In this document: piece after piece, positions 5,711 to 38,892 of the stretch
How positions within the stretch are numbered: the first letter of the stretch is position 1
How the letters are laid out: the number at the start of each line of letters is the position of its first letter
Source: Akkermansia muciniphila
GTDB taxonomy: Bacteria; Verrucomicrobiota; Verrucomicrobiia; Verrucomicrobiales; Akkermansiaceae
DNA length: 46,534 nt
Direction: 5' to 3'
NCBI GenBank assembly: GCA_945862285.1
Contig: CAMAYN010000006.1
Span: forward strand, 1 to 46,534
Notes under the pieces: generated by a model
What the model was told of the DNA's origin: nothing
Seen by the model: only the letters and a program-made list of their open reading frames with translations
Database searches by the model: none
Position numbers and translations under genes: made by a program

Positions 5711-6526
5711 TCAGTAATTCCGCATAAAACTCTCCTCCCACGGCGCATCCGTCTGTTTGGCATCTTTAACTTCCAACACCGCTTGCGTCGCTCCATTTTC
5801 TTTCGGGAAACGAATCACTCCCGTGACTTTCACCCATTGATTCTCGGCAATCTCTGGCGGTGTTTTTCCAAACTCTAAAATAATCGGCAAAGCGCGCGCA
5901 TCCGCCGCACAACACGTGATGAATAGTCGATATAAACGCCGCCGCGTGCCGTTGGGATTGTTCATTTTCTCCATCACCAATCGACCTTCAATTTCTATCC
6001 CTTTCCCTTCGATCAAGCGAATCATCTCTGGATCACCCATCGCAAAATAAATCTCTAACAAATTAAACTGCAAATCACCCTCGGCATTCTTACGATGCGT
6101 TTTTTCAATCTCCTCCATCGTCAACGGCGGCATATCCTTATAAGAAAATGGCACAATCGGAGTTGGAGCATCGTCGAGCCCCTTACGCACCAGTGCCTCG
6201 AACGAATACATATCCTGCGTCCACATCACCGCCGCTATAACCGGTGCTAGCATCAAGACCAAGGAAGCCAACGGATGCATCTCCGCCGCCTCATGATCCG
6301 CCACATCGCCTGCCCGATGATTATGCCCACAGTCCGCCGACACCCGATAGGTAATCATCACGAAAAGTGACAGCACCGCCAACACTAAGCCGCCCACTAG
6401 ACAGATCGGCTGAAAGTCCGGTGCCAGGTAATGCCGAATCCGCCCCGAACCATAAAAATACAACATCACCCCCGCCCACCCCAACGTGGCCAACGGAAAC
6501 ACAAGGCGCTGTAACGTGTAATTCAT
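5711..6526 (-). CDS. TIGR03943 / YcgQ-like membrane-anchored protein
   Basis: Partner protein of an UPF0718-type permease. I chose the ATG at 6526 (MNYTLQRLVFPLATLGWAG), which overlaps the permease stop by four bases (ATGA); an upstream TTG at 6553 is less likely. The N-terminal part has three hydrophobic segments (about residues 5-25, 33-58 and 80-98), followed by a soluble C-terminal domain of about 160 residues. That part contains ITCCAADARALPIILEFG and WVKVTGVIRF, typical of this family. Members are usually encoded next to such permeases, often with a link to metal homeostasis. Substrate and direction of transport are unknown here. Confidence 0.8.
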   Translation of the reverse strand: MNYTLQRLVFPLATLGWAGVMLYFYGSGRIRHYLAPDFQPICLVGGLVLAVLSLFVMITYRVSADCGHNHRAGDVADHEAAEMHPLASLVLMLAPVIAAVMWTQDMYSFEALVRKGLDDAPTPIVPFSYKDMPPLTMEEIEKTHRKNAEGDLQFNLLEIYFAMGDPEMIRLIEGKGIEIEGRLVMEKMNNPNGTRRRLYRLFITCCAADARALPIILEFGKTPPEIAENQWVKVTGVIRFPKENGATQAVLEVKDAKQTDAPWEESFMRNY

Positions 6527-7512
6527 GGTAGAGTTTGTGACGAGAGATACCATTGAAACAACACCGCCGCACCAAAGATGCTAAGCGCAATCCCTATCGC
6601 CATCATCAAAATAAATCGACCCCGTAACAGCGTTTGATAGAGAAACAACAACTTCAAATCCAGCATCGGCCCCAGAGTTAAAAACGCCAATTTCGCACCA
6701 TAGGTAAATTTCGCCAAAGTCGCCGCAATAAAGGCATCCGAAGAACTGCACAAACTCAACACAAACGCCAACCCCATCAACGCCGCCACTCCTCCCAGCG
6801 AATCACTTGCTAGCGATTCCAACCAATCCGCCGCACTCGGCGCGATCCCGGTATTGAACAAAGCCGTAATCGCCACCCCGATGGTAAAGTACACCGCCAC
6901 ATCCACGAAATCCTTCAACGCTGACCGCATCGCCGCGATCAATCGTGTATCGTCATCCAAAATCTGGAACCCCTGCAATGCCGCCACATCTTGATCCCCC
7001 ACCCCATCTTCCCGCTCCACCGCCTGCAAAATTTCCTTGCGTAACACCATCGCCAGCGACATCCGCATCGTCGCCCAGCCGATCAAACACGCTACCAACA
7101 CGCCCAAGCCGCAACGCAAAACCATCATCACCAAACTCGCATCCAGTAGCTGTCCTTGAATCATCATCTGCTGCCCCGTAAACGCCTGCCATGTACTGTA
7201 AGCCGTGATCGGATTAAAGATCGGTGCCGCCAGCATAAAGGCCAAGGCGCAAGAAACCGGCAAGCCCTTGCTCACCAAGCGACGGATTACAGGCACAATC
7301 GCACATTCGCAAACCGGAAAAATCCCCCCAAGCAACGATGCCATCATCACCGCCAACCACGTCCGCCGCGGCAACCAGCGTTCCAGCAAACCCGGCGGCA
7401 TGTAAATATCAATGAAGCCACTAACGATTGTCCCAAATAAAACAAACGGAATGCCCTCAAAAAGAATGCTCAAAAACGCAAAAGCAAAATTCTGTTGTGC
7501 AGCGGCATCCAT
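6523..7512 (-). CDS. UPF0718 / ArsP-type permease (YcgR/YraQ-like)
   Basis: Polytopic inner-membrane permease of 329 residues with about eight hydrophobic segments in two halves separated by a hydrophilic linker (about residues 165-200). The diagnostic signature GGIFPVCECAIVPVIRRL (about 61-78) contains the CEC-x2-VP motif of this family, and AFMLAAPIFNPITAYSTW follows. Relatives include ArsP, an organoarsenical exporter, but the adjacent TIGR03943 gene points to the YcgQ/YcgR pair instead, so I would not call it an arsenic transporter. It is cotranscribed with, and overlaps by four bases, the downstream partner gene. Confidence 0.85.
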   Translation of the reverse strand: MDAAAQQNFAFAFLSILFEGIPFVLFGTIVSGFIDIYMPPGLLERWLPRRTWLAVMMASLLGGIFPVCECAIVPVIRRLVSKGLPVSCALAFMLAAPIFNPITAYSTWQAFTGQQMMIQGQLLDASLVMMVLRCGLGVLVACLIGWATMRMSLAMVLRKEILQAVEREDGVGDQDVAALQGFQILDDDTRLIAAMRSALKDFVDVAVYFTIGVAITALFNTGIAPSAADWLESLASDSLGGVAALMGLAFVLSLCSSSDAFIAATLAKFTYGAKLAFLTLGPMLDLKLLFLYQTLLRGRFILMMAIGIALSIFGAAVLFQWYLSSQTLP

Positions 7513-33132: not shown

Positions 33133-33864
33133 CGTTTCATCGCAAAAGCGGATGAGACGATGGCAAAAACCCTCGACATTTTCCCACGGCAGACGATGTC
33201 CACAATCGGGGAAAACTTCATGCTGAATTGCGGGAAGATTGGCGCATGTCTTGTTGGCGAGAGTCGAAAATTTTTGATCATTTTCCCCCGTTAACCACAG
33301 CAGAGGCATGTGATTTCCTGCCAAATCTTCGCGTAGATCATCTTGCATACCCAGTGACCACTGCACAAAAGACCTTGCTACGGGACCTTTCCTCGATTCT
33401 AAATTTCTGCGATCTCCCCAACCATTTTCCTTTTTTCCACGCAACACGTCTTGTGCTGACCATTGCTCTAGCAACTCGTCCCATGGTGTATGTAGGCACC
33501 GTAGAGACCACTCAGCGTCACTCTCTCGCCGCTTGCGTTTCTCCTCCTCATCGGCAAGTCCTGGATGTGCCGAAATCACCACGCCACCAAACCACGGCGA
33601 CTTCTTATCCAAAATCGCATGCAAGGCAATTCTACCGCCCATCGAATACCCAACGATGATATGTCGCCCTTCACAAGCGGCGACTTCCGCATTCAATGCC
33701 GCTGCCGTTTCTTGTAAAGTTAAGGATTGGCAGTTATGAAAACGCCATAAATCCACAGCCCTTGTCGCATACCCTGCAGCCGCCATGATCTTAGTATGGA
33801 ATCGCCAATCAACGGCCATGCCAAAGGCTCCATGCAGAAACCAGATTGTCGTGTTATCTTTCAT
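33100..33864 (-). CDS. menH: MenH-type alpha/beta-hydrolase (SHCHC synthase)
   Basis: A 254-residue enzyme from the ATG at 33864 (MKDNTTIWFLHGAFG), or three residues longer from 33873. MenH removes pyruvate from the MenD product to make SHCHC in menaquinone synthesis. Motifs are WFLHGAFGMAVDW, the nucleophile elbow VGYSMGGRIALH and the catalytic histidine in PDCGHRLPWE. The start lies inside the end of menD (about 11-bp overlap), strongly supporting the MenH assignment over a generic hydrolase. Its last 33 bp are shared, antisense, with the methyltransferase gene. Confidence 0.88.
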   Translation of the reverse strand: MKDNTTIWFLHGAFGMAVDWRFHTKIMAAAGYATRAVDLWRFHNCQSLTLQETAAALNAEVAACEGRHIIVGYSMGGRIALHAILDKKSPWFGGVVISAHPGLADEEEKRKRRESDAEWSLRCLHTPWDELLEQWSAQDVLRGKKENGWGDRRNLESRKGPVARSFVQWSLGMQDDLREDLAGNHMPLLWLTGENDQKFSTLANKTCANLPAIQHEVFPDCGHRLPWENVEGFCHRLIRFCDETLGLTSPQGNL

Positions 33865-35428
33865 TGATGGCATCCCATTTTTTCCAAAAGAGCGAGCTTT
33901 GTTGCTCATCTGGGAAAATTTCACAAAGGGTCACACCGTGAATCTCATCTAACAATTCAAGATCATTCACGCTACGTAGCGGAACATACGCAGCCCCCCA
34001 CATTGCCGCTGTCTCCTTCATGGTTTGGGTGTGGCCTTGTAGCATCCAATCTCGTGCTGAAGGCTGCATCTTTGCCAATCGTGGTAAACGTTCGAAAATT
34101 TTCCCACCAGAATTATTAATCACCACAAGCACTCTTCCCGCGCGCTCACATTGATGTAAGAAATGTAATGCCGTGGCATCATACATCGCCGTGAGATCTC
34201 CCACCATACACCATGCATTAGCTTCATCTGCCGTCCAGCCGAGCCATGTCGCGAGTTGCCCATCGATGCCATTCACCCCGCGATTTGCCTTCACCCGCGT
34301 CATTGCTTGCGACTCTTGAGCAAAGAGATTCCATTCACGAATCGGCATGCTATTTCCTAAAAATAAACTTTCCGCAAATCCCGCATATCCAGAAATTGTT
34401 CTCACCCAGGCCGCTTCACTTTCGGGATACGACTGCAACAATTCATCGCGAATCGCCGCACGCCGAAGTCGCAAGCGCAACCAATCTTGTGGATCAGCAC
34501 ATTTTTCTAAATGCCCGATGGCCTTCAAAGCCTTGCCACAGTGATGCGGCCACGCTAGCCAAGTATGCGAACTTTCTCTCGCCAAACCAGCGTAGGGGAT
34601 TCGGCTCACCGACCACACGTCCACCTCTGGCATATCTTCTAAATCCCGCCAAAAACGCCCCGACGGCACACCACCAATCCGTATAACCTTGCCCGGTGGA
34701 TGCGCGCGCAACAACCGATCGCCATCGGCAATGGCGCGATGCCCCAGAGCTTCTCGCAAGCCACTCGTTGCCTCCGCGATAACTGGCACGCCCCAATCTT
34801 CCAGAAAATGCCACACATCTTCTTGCTCATCCTCGCGTAGTCCACTGACGATCGCTACAATGCCATTTTCATGCCCTTCGCGAATCCATCGCGACAGCCC
34901 ACCCACATCAAGTCGCGCCGCTTTTCGTTCAGCTAAAACCGGCACATCCGTAAAATCAATTTCCGCTGGGGAAAAATCCTCCTCAAGTTCGATATTGCAG
35001 TGAAATGGCGCACAGAAACTCCAATCTAACGGACATCCGCTCTCCGCATGCACGCCGAAAATCCCGCGCTGGTCAATGCTCTGCGGTGCCCCCGTGCCAC
35101 GAAATCGCTCAGGCCGATCCGCCGTCATTGCTAGCAATGGCAGCCCTTGATAATGCGCCTCAATCACCGCTGGCAGAAGTTCTGCCACCGCCGTACCACT
35201 CGTCGTAACTACCGCACATGGTGATCCGGACATACAACGACCTAGCGCAAAAAATCCCGCCGCTCGCTCATCGAAATGCGTCCAACAACGCACCAGCCCT
35301 GCGTCCTTCGCCCGCGCTAGCACATCGAACAAAACAGCATTTCGTGCACCCGCACAAAGCACAAATTCCTTAACCCCCGCAGCCATTGCTGCCTTCACGC
35401 TATTGACGGCTATTTCCCATGAATCCAC
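33854..35428 (-). CDS. menD: 2-succinyl-5-enolpyruvyl-6-hydroxy-3-cyclohexene-1-carboxylate synthase (MenD)
   Basis: Thiamine-diphosphate enzyme of menaquinone synthesis joining isochorismate and 2-oxoglutarate, 524 residues from a GTG start at 35428. Signatures are VTTSGTAVAELLPAVIEAHY (with the cofactor-activating glutamate), TADRPERFRGTGAPQSIDQ, LFLGNSMPIREWN and the diphosphate/magnesium region CMVGDLTAMYDATALHFLHQ. It is somewhat shorter than many MenD proteins (about 550). menH overlaps its end. menF, menC, menE and menB are not in the window. A terminator for the upstream small gene at 35490-35520 lies just ahead, so menD probably has its own promoter in a short space. Confidence 0.93.
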   Translation of the reverse strand: MDSWEIAVNSVKAAMAAGVKEFVLCAGARNAVLFDVLARAKDAGLVRCWTHFDERAAGFFALGRCMSGSPCAVVTTSGTAVAELLPAVIEAHYQGLPLLAMTADRPERFRGTGAPQSIDQRGIFGVHAESGCPLDWSFCAPFHCNIELEEDFSPAEIDFTDVPVLAERKAARLDVGGLSRWIREGHENGIVAIVSGLREDEQEDVWHFLEDWGVPVIAEATSGLREALGHRAIADGDRLLRAHPPGKVIRIGGVPSGRFWRDLEDMPEVDVWSVSRIPYAGLARESSHTWLAWPHHCGKALKAIGHLEKCADPQDWLRLRLRRAAIRDELLQSYPESEAAWVRTISGYAGFAESLFLGNSMPIREWNLFAQESQAMTRVKANRGVNGIDGQLATWLGWTADEANAWCMVGDLTAMYDATALHFLHQCERAGRVLVVINNSGGKIFERLPRLAKMQPSARDWMLQGHTQTMKETAAMWGAAYVPLRSVNDLELLDEIHGVTLCEIFPDEQQSSLFWKKWDAINER

Positions 35429-35489
35429 ATGGCCAACTTGCTCTCATCCCATCCATCAAGCAAGTGAAAATACGATTTTGACACATCAC

Positions 35490-35520
35490 AAAAAAAGCCC
35501 GTGCCGCAGTTACGCGACAC
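35490..35520 (-). terminator. Rho-independent terminator downstream of the Cys-rich peptide gene
   Basis: On the minus strand a 7-bp stem with one G-U pair (gtgtcgc, 35520-35514, with gcggcac, 35507-35501) and a 6-nt loop is followed by gggc and seven T residues (A run 35490-35496 on the plus strand). It starts 33 bp after the peptide's stop codon and separates it from menD. Confidence 0.85.
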
Positions 35521-35553
35521 AGACTGAGTCGATCAAGTCAGTGGGGAAAATGA

Positions 35554-35673
35554 CTATTGCTTCGCGCAAACGCATTTCTCGCATTTGCACTTCTTGCATT
35601 TGCAGCCTTCTTCAGCAGCGCTGACCATGTTGGCAAATCCACACAGGAGAATCATAAAAAATATCGTTTTCAT
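35554..35673 (-). CDS. Very small secreted cysteine-rich peptide (39-residue precursor)
   Basis: An ATG-started frame encoding a signal peptide (MKTIFFMILLCGFANMVSA) followed by a mature chain of about 20 residues with the core CKCKKCKCEKCVC: six cysteines alternating with lysine. This is metallothionein-like or disulfide-rich and should be exported. No family is recognised. Support comes from the signal peptide, ATG start, cysteine spacing and a terminator placed just behind the stop. The antisense strand also carries an open frame with a hydrophobic start (from 35557), which I take to be a shadow of the Lys/Cys codons. Possible roles are metal binding, redox or an antimicrobial/signal peptide; none is shown. 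Confidence 0.65.
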   Translation of the reverse strand: MKTIFFMILLCGFANMVSAAEEGCKCKKCKCEKCVCAKQ

Positions 35674-35837
35674 AAATCGTATTGTTATTCCAATGTCGTA
35701 GATAATCTATCTGCGGACAAAATCATAAATACGCCATTCACACGAAAAATCAAAGGAATTTTTTCTCAGCCCGATTTTCAACTCGTTTCCAGAAAACCCA
35801 TACCTCTCACTACTCGCGACGCACTGACCTAAGATCA

Positions 35838-35853
35838 CTGCGCATTAGCGCAG
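35838..35853 (+). promoter_or_regulatory. Hairpin upstream of sulfatase start
   Basis: A perfect inverted repeat, ctgcgc (35838-35843) and gcgcag (35848-35853) with a 4-nt loop, ends 14 bp before the first ATG of the sulfatase gene. It could be an operator or an mRNA hairpin covering the ribosome-binding region. There is no T tract, so it is not a terminator. Confidence 0.4.
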
Positions 35854-35867
35854 CTCGAAATAGCATT

Positions 35868-37457
35868 ATGATGGAAAAAATCATTCCCATGCCCAGGCAA
35901 ATCTATCATACAGACATTATGAAAACAGTAACGTTCTTGGATAGCCCTTGCGAAGCGAAAGTGACATTCCTCCAACCATCTGGATCGTCACTTGATTCCC
36001 GTGGCTTCATTTCATCGAGCCATTACATATCTTTTTTCCTCTGCCTTTTCCTATGCCTTTCTTATTCCTACGCGGATCCTTCCACAAAGCAGCAACCCAA
36101 TATCATTGTCGTTTTGGTCGATGATATGGGCTGGTCAGATCTTTCATGCTTTGGCGGCAAGGATGGGAAAACCGAGCACATCGATCAGCTTGCTAACGAG
36201 GGCTTACGATTTGAAAATTTTTATGTCAATTCTCCCATTTGCTCCCCTTCTCGTGTGGCATTCTCAACAGGGCAATACCCACAGCGATGGAAAATCAGTT
36301 CTTATTTGGATCATCGGAAACTCAATCACAAACGAGGTTTGGCACAATGGCTTGATCCTTCGGCACCCATGCTCGCGCGCGAACTTCAGAAAAACGGCTA
36401 CTCTACGGGACATTTCGGAAAGTGGCACATGGGAGGACAACGCGATGTTACCGACGCGCCCTTACCTACAGCGTATGGTTTTGAGCAAAGCATCGTCAAT
36501 TTTGAAGGCATCGGCGCTAAATTCCTGCCTCTCACAATGAAACCCGGTGACTTACAAGCAGGCCGCATTTGGCAAGATGCGGAACGACTGGGGCAGCCAG
36601 TCACTTGGATGCAGCGCTCTGAAATCACTGGTGGCTTCGTCGAGGCAGCACTTTCCTTTATCGCAAAATCTCGATCAGCAAAAAAACCATTCTATATCAA
36701 TCTCTGGCCAGACGACGTTCACTCACCTTTCTTTCCTCCTCTCCATCGATGGGGGGAGAGCAAACGCGCGTTGTATCTTTCCGTGCTGCATACCATGGAT
36801 GAGCAACTCGGTAAACTTTTCGCTTACGTTCGCAATGACGATGAATTGCGAAAGAATACCTTGATCGTATTTTGCTCGGATAACGGTCACGAACCCGGGG
36901 CTGGATCGAGCCATCCATTGAGAGGAGGGAAAACATGGCTCTATGAAGGCGGCATTCGCTCCCCGCTCATTGTGTGGTGCCCCGGCCTGATGAATCCAGC
37001 ATCGATAGGGAAAACGAACCAAAATTCTATGTTCAGTGCAATTGATCTCAATCGTTCCCTCTATGCTCTGACATCGACGGCGCTACCACGCAGCCACATA
37101 ATCGACGGCGAGGATGTGAGCGCAACATTGTTAGGAAATCGCACCGCATCGCGTCTTTCTCCCCTGTTTTTCCGACGGCCACCCGACCGCCCAGGCAATG
37201 ATCCTAAATGGGGTATGGGAGACAATCCTGATCTCGCTGTGCGCCATGGTGTGTGGAAATTCCTCGTGAATTTCGATGGATCAGAAGCACAACTTTACCA
37301 TATCCAAGATGACCCCTGCGAGTCCAAAAATCTTCTACAACAATACCCCGACATCGCAAAGGATCTTCAAACCCGCTTGTTTGCGTGGAATCACCAACTC
37401 CCGAAAGATTCAGGTATCTCTGATTTTTCTGAATCGAATCATTCCAAAAATCAATAA
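35868..37457 (+). CDS. Secreted sulfatase with CxPSR active site
   Basis: A 529-residue sulfatase from the first ATG; several in-frame starts exist (35871, 35889, 35919). The hydrophobic export segment ISFFLCLFLCLSYSYA lies unusually far in (about residues 54-69), leaving an odd 50-residue extension, so the true start is uncertain. Domain features: PNIIVVLVDDMGWSDLSCFG (metal aspartates), SPICSPSRVAFSTGQYP with the formylglycine cysteine at 125, HFGKWHMGG, LIVFCSDNGHEPG and HPLRGGKTWLYEGGIRSP. The canonical CxPSR motif contrasts with the CxVSR of the other sulfatase. A PhoD gene follows after 19 bp. Confidence 0.9.
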   Translation: MMEKIIPMPRQIYHTDIMKTVTFLDSPCEAKVTFLQPSGSSLDSRGFISSSHYISFFLCLFLCLSYSYADPSTKQQPNIIVVLVDDMGWSDLSCFGGKDGKTEHIDQLANEGLRFENFYVNSPICSPSRVAFSTGQYPQRWKISSYLDHRKLNHKRGLAQWLDPSAPMLARELQKNGYSTGHFGKWHMGGQRDVTDAPLPTAYGFEQSIVNFEGIGAKFLPLTMKPGDLQAGRIWQDAERLGQPVTWMQRSEITGGFVEAALSFIAKSRSAKKPFYINLWPDDVHSPFFPPLHRWGESKRALYLSVLHTMDEQLGKLFAYVRNDDELRKNTLIVFCSDNGHEPGAGSSHPLRGGKTWLYEGGIRSPLIVWCPGLMNPASIGKTNQNSMFSAIDLNRSLYALTSTALPRSHIIDGEDVSATLLGNRTASRLSPLFFRRPPDRPGNDPKWGMGDNPDLAVRHGVWKFLVNFDGSEAQLYHIQDDPCESKNLLQQYPDIAKDLQTRLFAWNHQLPKDSGISDFSESNHSKNQ

Positions 37458-37476
37458 AGTCACTCTTTTCCCATCG

Positions 37477-38892
37477 ATGAAATACTTCTGCTTAGCCACC
37501 TTATCCTTACTGTGCATCTCCGTTAGCCATTGTGCGGAAATTCATCTCGCGCAAGGACTCCTCTCGGGAGAGCCGACTCATGACTCCGTTATCCTCCAAT
37601 CTCGACTCACCGCCGTCGCGCAGCCCATCGATAGGAAAATTCCCGGAAGCCGCGGCGTAGGGCGTTTTGAAATATCGGCAATGGCGAATTTCTCTTCATC
37701 CACATTTTCCGAATGGCTCAGTGCGACTCCCGAAAATGATTTCATACTCAAGGCAAAAATGGCAGCGCTAAATCCTTCCACGATATACTACTATCGCCTG
37801 ATCTACGGCAAAGATCAAAGTCATACCAAACCAAGTAGTACGGCTTCAAGTAAGACTCTTCCAGCACCCTCAACCATCGCGCCGATGCACTTTATTGTCA
37901 CCAGTTGTTTGAACTACTCCTTTTTCCAAGAATCTGCCAAAAATCAAGACTCGGCGACATCGCAGGATCGCATTTTGGGGTATCCGGCACTTGAATCGAT
38001 TCACCACTGCAAGCCGGACTTTGTGATCTTTAATGGCGATTGCGTGTACTACGATCACCCTGCGCAAACACGCGCCAAGAGCCAAGGGGAACTCCGCCAA
38101 AAATGGCATGAGCAATACGCGATGCCGCGATTTCCGAAAATCTTCGCCCAAACTCCCACATTCTGGCTGAAGGACGATCACGATTATCGTTTCAACGACT
38201 CCGATCCTAAAGGGAATCAGCAACCATCCCATGAACTCGGGATTGCTACATTTCGGGAGCAAGTTCCGGTAATCGATCCTAAGGCACCAGACAGCCCTAC
38301 ATACCGCACACATCGCATCACGAAAGATCTTCAACTTTGGTTTGTAGAGGGACGCGATTACCGCAGTGAAAATCGAATGCCCGACGGGCCAACCAAATCT
38401 CTCTGGGGCATAACTCAAAGAAATTGGCTTCAGCAATCGATCAAAAACTCTAAAGCCACCTACAAAATGATCATTTCACCCACTCCCATGATCGGTCCCG
38501 ATGATGGCTATAAATCGGATAACCATGCCAATCTCAAAGGATTCCACCATGAAGCGCAGTCGTTTTTCGAATGGCTCATCAGTAACAACATCGACCCCAA
38601 AAAATTCTTCCTCCTTTGTGGTGATCGTCATTGGAAATATCACTCCATCCATCCACTCGGATTTACCGAGTTTTCTTGCGGTGCCCTGAATCGCGAAAAT
38701 GCCCGTCTCGGACGCAAACCCGGCGATCCGCAATCGAATGACCCTGCGGGGAAAATCCGCCAACCCTATACCGATCAGCAACCGAGCGGCGGATTTCTCC
38801 GAGTATCCCTCGAAACAACTCCCTCCACTTCACTAAAATTTTTCCACCATGACGATCAAGGCAAAATCCTGCATCAGTTTACCGCACCATAA
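37477..38892 (+). CDS. PhoD-like phosphatase, second copy
   Basis: A 471-residue PhoD-family phosphatase starting MKYFCLATLSLLCISVSHC, a signal peptide with a possible lipid-attachable cysteine. The ATG lies 19 bp after the sulfatase stop; longer in-frame starts inside the sulfatase are rejected. Metal-site motifs: VIFNGDCVYYDHPAQ, TFWLKDDHDYRFND and FLLCGDRHWKYHSI. It lacks the C-terminal type-3 repeats of the PhoD at 8721 and is only distantly similar to it. Pairing with a sulfatase suggests one operon for stripping phosphate and sulfate esters from organic matter, an inference from context. Confidence 0.88.
   Translation: MKYFCLATLSLLCISVSHCAEIHLAQGLLSGEPTHDSVILQSRLTAVAQPIDRKIPGSRGVGRFEISAMANFSSSTFSEWLSATPENDFILKAKMAALNPSTIYYYRLIYGKDQSHTKPSSTASSKTLPAPSTIAPMHFIVTSCLNYSFFQESAKNQDSATSQDRILGYPALESIHHCKPDFVIFNGDCVYYDHPAQTRAKSQGELRQKWHEQYAMPRFPKIFAQTPTFWLKDDHDYRFNDSDPKGNQQPSHELGIATFREQVPVIDPKAPDSPTYRTHRITKDLQLWFVEGRDYRSENRMPDGPTKSLWGITQRNWLQQSIKNSKATYKMIISPTPMIGPDDGYKSDNHANLKGFHHEAQSFFEWLISNNIDPKKFFLLCGDRHWKYHSIHPLGFTEFSCGALNRENARLGRKPGDPQSNDPAGKIRQPYTDQQPSGGFLRVSLETTPSTSLKFFHHDDQGKILHQFTAP

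Follow-up and report, generated by a model that had tools for sequence, protein, structure and literature searches.

The closest described system is CutF of Rhodobacter capsulatus, an exported protein with a Cys motif and a proline-rich C terminus that is followed by a short gap with a stem-loop; according to the published account, copper that binds to the nascent chain holds up its export, and the start of the downstream gene is thereby opened (PMC9973294). The CutF-like genes surveyed in that account were filtered for products shorter than 150 aa with a signal peptide, PP in the last 15 residues and a same-strand gene within 1000 nt; nearly all of them came from Pseudomonadota and Bacteroidota, and those of the Cys type are described as lying mostly upstream of copper-homeostasis genes (PMC9973294). 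CruR of Bordetella is presented as a system of similar parts that employs Rho-dependent termination and responds with the opposite sign (PMC9426467). Among the open-access papers listed, we saw no report of a CutF-like gene followed by a metallothionein, or of the peptide family described below, which is no proof of absence.

Metallothioneins are small proteins with at least a quarter Cys, CxC and CxxC spacing and a metal-binding part free of aromatic residues, the named ones including the prokaryotic SmtA/BmtA and MymT and the eukaryotic MT. To our knowledge, the known bacterial metallothioneins are cytosolic.

Here we describe a 39-residue, Cys-rich gene, termed gene B, in a window of Akkermansia muciniphila DNA (the window being the whole stretch analysed, 46,534 nucleotides). 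From sequence and genome context, gene B probably encodes a small exported metallothionein-like peptide; in the six relatives it is the second of an adjacent pair, behind the gene of a putative CutF-like sensor, termed gene A. Its features are collected in Table 1. The ORF, its translation and its minus-strand placement (35673-35554, MKTIFFMILLCGFANMVSAAEEGCKCKKCKCEKCVCAKQ) agreed with the original prediction on re-reading the sequence. The product divides into a predicted signal, MKTIFFMILLCGFANMVSA, and a mature part, AEEGCKCKKCKCEKCVCAKQ; the signal, called from its hydrophobicity and A-x-A-like end, has a Lys near the start, a hydrophobic core and a predicted cleavage between VSA and AE. 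The predicted mature part consists of 20 residues with six Cys within thirteen, and a seventh Cys, C11, lies inside the signal. Genes as short as this are readily overlooked by annotation.

Table 1 Features of the gene B locus in the window.
Feature	Position	Strand	Basis
Gene B, 39-aa Cys-rich ORF with signal-like start	35554..35673	(-)	ORF call and homologues
Predicted Sec signal peptide MKTIFFMILLCGFANMVSA, residues 1-19	35617..35673	(-)	Hydrophobicity; predicted cleavage site
Putative metal-thiolate site: the Cys core CKCKKCKCEKCVC (residues 24-36)	35566..35604	(-)	Alignment of seven members
Terminator-like hairpin of gene B, between gene B and the menD-like gene	35496..35525	(-)	-19.9 kcal/mol
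Upstream intergenic region, presumably with the promoter, no CutF-like ORF	35674..35867	(-)	ORF reading
menD-like gene, TPP enzyme N domain, downstream, same strand as gene B	33854..35428	(-)	Pfam
Sulfatase, divergent upstream neighbour	35868..37457	(+)	PF00884, 7.9e-41

For the search of relatives, a single-sequence search of 57 genomes gave the congener G009 clearly (E 3e-5) and G010 (E 0.0475), which was accepted after reading, and six other matches were dropped on reading their frames. In the family (260 genomes), a profile of three members added G274 (2.6e-10) and G026 (1.7e-4); a profile of five added G253 (3.5e-5) among 386 genomes of the order, and a profile of six added G423 (5.4e-6), from a different family of the class, among 362 genomes of the phylum; the profile of five found no new member among 384 genomes of the class. 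These six relatives, all in the phylum, are 50-61 aa long, the window copy being the shortest, and in each the signal-like start is kept together with the motif C-x-C-x2-C-(x/xx)-C and a hairpin past the stop. The original prediction of a Cys-rich ORF that begins with a signal and has a terminator of its own was supported, and the ORF is conserved.

Frame reading removed 21 of 26 genomes in the family (profile of three), 10 of 15 in the order, 6 of 7 in the class and 2 of 4 in the phylum, the rejected matches being signal-bearing HMA-like proteins, Cys stretches with Sel1-like regions, likeness in the signal only, and frame accidents. At a limit of E 0.05, a re-scan of the family by the profile of six matched 23 of the 260 genomes, of which six carry gene B and 17 were dropped on reading; since, in addition, a signal-bearing HMA-like protein of G257 matched the profile at E 5.2e-6, profile scores alone do not define the gene B family. 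By the genus and family labels of the search tool, gene B occurs in 2/10 genomes of the genus and 6/260 of the family, with one outside the family; many of the genomes are incomplete, so that absences of genes are soft. A search of genome contigs with the pattern CKCxKCKC (at least 119 stretches) gave no gene B among the matches listed, most of which were frame accidents. No match was found by tblastn, with the low-complexity filter on, in plasmids using gene B of G009 or in phages using that of G423.

With just 39 codons, a sparse distribution and no consensus promoter, gene B might be a chance ORF. The window holds exactly one reading-frame case of at least six Cys in 13 residues, and 300 first-order Markov shuffles of the window gave 18 such stretches (0.06 per window), only one of which came with a Met and a hydrophobic signal-like segment. 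The homologues adjoin gene A, and hairpins lie 3' of gene B in all seven members. The original prediction had made its case depend on conservation of the frame in relatives, and the frame is indeed kept in G009 (63% and 56% in two comparisons) as well as in the further members of the phylum. Over the 39 aligned codons of the window and G009, 15 are identical, 8 synonymous and 16 non-synonymous, and the NG86 values, from this small sample, are dN 0.29 and dS 1.29. Because the frame is conserved, we consider the chance ORF refuted and give it hardly any probability. A 91-aa ORF antisense to gene B (35557-35832, plus strand) appeared by eye unlike the antisense frame of G009.

In the alignment of the seven members, M1, K2, C24, C26, C29, C31, E32, C34 and C36 are invariant, and the Cys part of four members carries one- or two-residue insertions. 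The Cys are conserved across the members while the Lys are not; the description as a Lys/Cys peptide is true for the window's genus, where the core has 6 basic residues among 16, but not for the other five relatives, whose Cys cores are net acidic with one or two basic residues. In composition gene B resembles metallothioneins, with 6-13 Cys in cores of 16-33 residues (37.5-48% Cys) and no Phe, Trp, Tyr or Met in any of the seven cores, which hold one His in total. Like metallothioneins, it is short and Cys-rich with CxC/CxxC spacing and a core without aromatics, whereas it differs in its signal-like start, in having no profile over cut-off and in being known here from sequence. No curated metallothionein profile exceeded its cut-off for a gene B member, the nearest being PF12749 (Metallothio_Euk), which reached E 0.0056 for the G009 member, with a score of 17.1 bits where the cut-off is 22. 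The statement that no named family shows this pattern holds for Pfam and NCBIfam, which claim 0/7 members at curated cut-offs.

A small, signal-bearing, Cys-rich product that is cationic in the window's genus could also be a disulfide-stabilised secreted peptide, such as a bacteriocin or another antagonistic peptide, and a disulfide knot had been offered in the original prediction beside metal binding. The core Cys counts are 6 in the window and 13, 10, 9, 9, 9 and 12 in the others, and both number and spacing vary; four of the seven counts are odd, which speaks against a knot. The cores of the other five members are net acidic, and nothing that looked by eye like an immunity, transporter or maturation gene lies alongside gene B. 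We therefore disfavour the knot and regard a disulfide-stabilised peptide as unlikely. AlphaFold gave no confident fold of gene B (pLDDT 56), and a PDB profile search with gene B gave no match.

Bufferins (BufA with the MNIO BufB) are small Cys-rich metallophores of the periplasm according to their NCBIfam description, and the window's genome holds a single MNIO (L168 4589-5458), which scores above the cut-off of the NCBIfam model for BufB, the bufferin maturase. Gene B could accordingly be the precursor of a RiPP metallophore that is matured in trans by this MNIO. However, the MNIO lies on another contig, where a CKGKDGC-repeat gene that looks like its own precursor is found 1.5 kb off (L168 6938-7324), no MNIO or adjacent maturase was recognised by eye beside any gene B locus, and no gene B member matches a BufA model. 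Gene B further differs in its CxC spacing, bufferins having a single Cys per repeat. Since the separate BufB-like locus has its own precursor-like gene, we regard a bufferin-like origin of gene B as distinctly improbable. The region L168 3715-7324 (G000:C12) of the window's genome, with the BufB-type MNIO, the signal-bearing CKGKDGC-repeat protein and, by eye, ORFs for a BufC-like protein and a sigma factor, is itself likely a bufferin locus.

In 6/6 other loci, including those of G253 and G423, which had been found by gene B profiles alone, gene A lies directly upstream of gene B on the same strand. This ORF is small and Cys-rich, opens with a signal-like segment and carries PP or PPP just before its stop; the residues that directly precede the stop codon are PPLPPPES, PPSPPPRVC, PVPPPPQWG, PSSPPPKYS, PPFPPPKDACV and HPPRC. 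The gaps between the two genes measure 75 nt in G009, 77 in G010, 81 in G274, 69 in G026, 70 in G253 and 50 in G423. We framed a mechanical rule (signal-like start, at least four Cys, a Pro run in the last 15 residues) after five A genes were known and ran it on 1,353,545 bases, overlapping copies included. Requiring PPP, the rule returned five of the six A genes and one other ORF; requiring PP, it returned all six and 13 other ORFs. With neither PP nor PPP did it find a gene A-like ORF in the window, and gene A profiles found none in the window's genome (92% complete) with E limited to 0.05; a second search that allowed E values as high as 10, and had no positive control, was likewise empty.

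Gene A passes the CutF-like filters at all six loci, the signal being judged by hydrophobicity only. It shares with the CutF-like sensors (CutF, CruR/DUF2946, CopL) its short length, signal-like start, Cys motif, terminal Pro run and a gap of 50-81 nt to the next gene. Among the differences, gene A precedes a Cys peptide, whereas the known targets are an oxidase, a TonB receptor and an efflux part, and no gene A stands at the window locus. Furthermore, nothing in Pfam or NCBIfam, DUF2946 included, matched gene A over cut-off (best DUF6764, E 0.038); it is therefore described here as built like CutF, and family membership is not claimed. Hairpins in the six gaps were weak, scoring only a little better than shuffles (z -0.58, -2.11, -1.56, -1.11, -2.03 and -0.65), and no clear Shine-Dalgarno sequence was seen before gene B for them to hide. 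By analogy, we read gene A of the relatives as a putative CutF-like nascent-chain metal sensor.

The original prediction had also placed a terminator behind gene B, and a strong hairpin is present there, but its stem begins 28 nt past the stop, not 33. The stem (35525-35496) has 13 pairs, 7 of them G-C, a loop of 4 and the tail TTTTTTGTGA; random 110-mers of the window reached -12 kcal/mol in 6 of 400 cases. It is the strongest of three terminator-like sites in 34000-37500, where the shuffle mean is 3.7; as the number of sites is not above shuffles, stem length rather than mere presence carries the weight. Hairpins of -19 kcal/mol or better by the strict rule stand 3' of gene B in six of seven members, that of G253 passing with a poor T tail; in G010 the hairpin fails the rule (-2.3), and a longer-loop hairpin of -29.4 kcal/mol is present.

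A short ORF rich in Cys codons, then a terminator-like hairpin, then the menD-like gene on the same strand, is also the order expected if gene B were a leader peptide that attenuates the downstream gene through its Cys codons and hairpin; G010, G253 and G423 likewise have their next gene on the gene B strand. In G009, G274 and G026, however, the next gene is convergent, so that there is nothing to attenuate there, and what is conserved lies at the protein level (signal, Cys spacing). Other genes lie 5' of the menD-like gene in the seven congeners whose stretch was read; its neighbourhood is not conserved within the genus and hence gives no information on the age of gene B. We find attenuation highly improbable.

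No sigma-70-like promoter was found just upstream of the window's gene B. Among the seven upstream stretches, TTTTTAACC is common to three (a 9-mer shared that widely arose in 1 of 500 shuffle sets), and ATAGAAT is also common to three (111 of 500 shuffle sets). This sharing suggests that gene B may have a promoter of its own, which TTTTTAACC may mark. In three genomes TTTTTAACC sits 15-20 nt before the gene B start, within the A-B gaps (L165, L166, L167).

The A-B pair corresponds to the published CutF-like architecture, and on this ground gene B is read as an exported metallothionein-like metal binder, whose expression would usually be metal-responsive. Metal binding is indirectly suggested by the metallothionein-like composition together with the CutF-like gene beside 6/6 relatives. 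Removal of the Sec signal would leave about 20 residues with six thiols (9-13 in the relatives) in CxC/CxxC spacing, and the mature peptide would act in the periplasm or outside the cell. There its thiols may bind a soft metal as a thiolate cluster, and the metal so bound would be buffered or detoxified. A soft metal is indicated by the density of thiols, by the missing aromatics and by the partner gene that resembles a sensor; copper comes first, most likely as Cu(I), with Zn, Cd, Hg and Ag as further candidates. The anatomy would also fit an exported Cys peptide of another role, for example a redox buffer, an iron-sulfur or zinc carrier or an envelope cross-linker, the metal being our proposal; the CutF-like partner nevertheless points to metal, mostly copper by the contexts given in the published survey (PMC9973294), and we allow such other roles a small but appreciable share of probability. 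At the seven loci no metal-transport or metal-enzyme gene was recognised beside gene B, by eye and, for the window flanks, by Pfam.

As for the regulation of the metallothionein-like peptide, in the relatives gene A, presumably co-transcribed with gene B, would sense extracytoplasmic metal and set the translation of gene B; in the window, where gene B stands without gene A, it would be controlled in some other way. What is observed here is the ORF with its relatives, the conserved Cys, the adjacency of genes A and B and the hairpins; export, expression, co-transcription, binding of metal and its identity, sensing and benefit are inferred from these. Tentatively, and with less than even confidence, we propose a two-gene metal response, patchy in the phylum, in which an exported sensor switches on an exported metallothionein with no separate protein regulator and from which the window's gene B has been freed. 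If true, an exported metallothionein and a CutF-like sensor would together make up a very small defence against metal beyond the cytoplasm, and the CutF mechanism would gain a target that is both new and simple, in a phylum other than Pseudomonadota and Bacteroidota.

Several other Cys-rich or metal-related genes were seen in passing. Elsewhere in the window (5711-7512), an ArsP_1 permease adjoins a DUF1980 protein, a pair that is often tied to metal homeostasis. Proteins of genus g9 (L039 1501-2093; L207, L208, L209, L217, L019 and L020) join a signal to a gene B-like Cys-rich linker, and the region behind the linker in L039, the one tested, is an HMA metal domain (Pfam HMA, 2.2e-12). Those of genus g3 (L189, L191, L192 and L193) show by eye a signal, a Cys stretch and then Sel1-like repeats. 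In G683, from another family of the order, a 133-aa Cys-repeat protein (L205 1413-1814) has CKCE and CxxC units, opens with a signal-like segment and is followed by a terminator-like hairpin; it has no gene A upstream and was kept outside the gene B family by judgement. Longer signal-bearing proteins with CDKCKGDKCKG or CEKGKCDKDKKE repeats occur at L130 4147-4581, from Verrucomicrobia bacterium (V1-690), and at L022 from about 1492.
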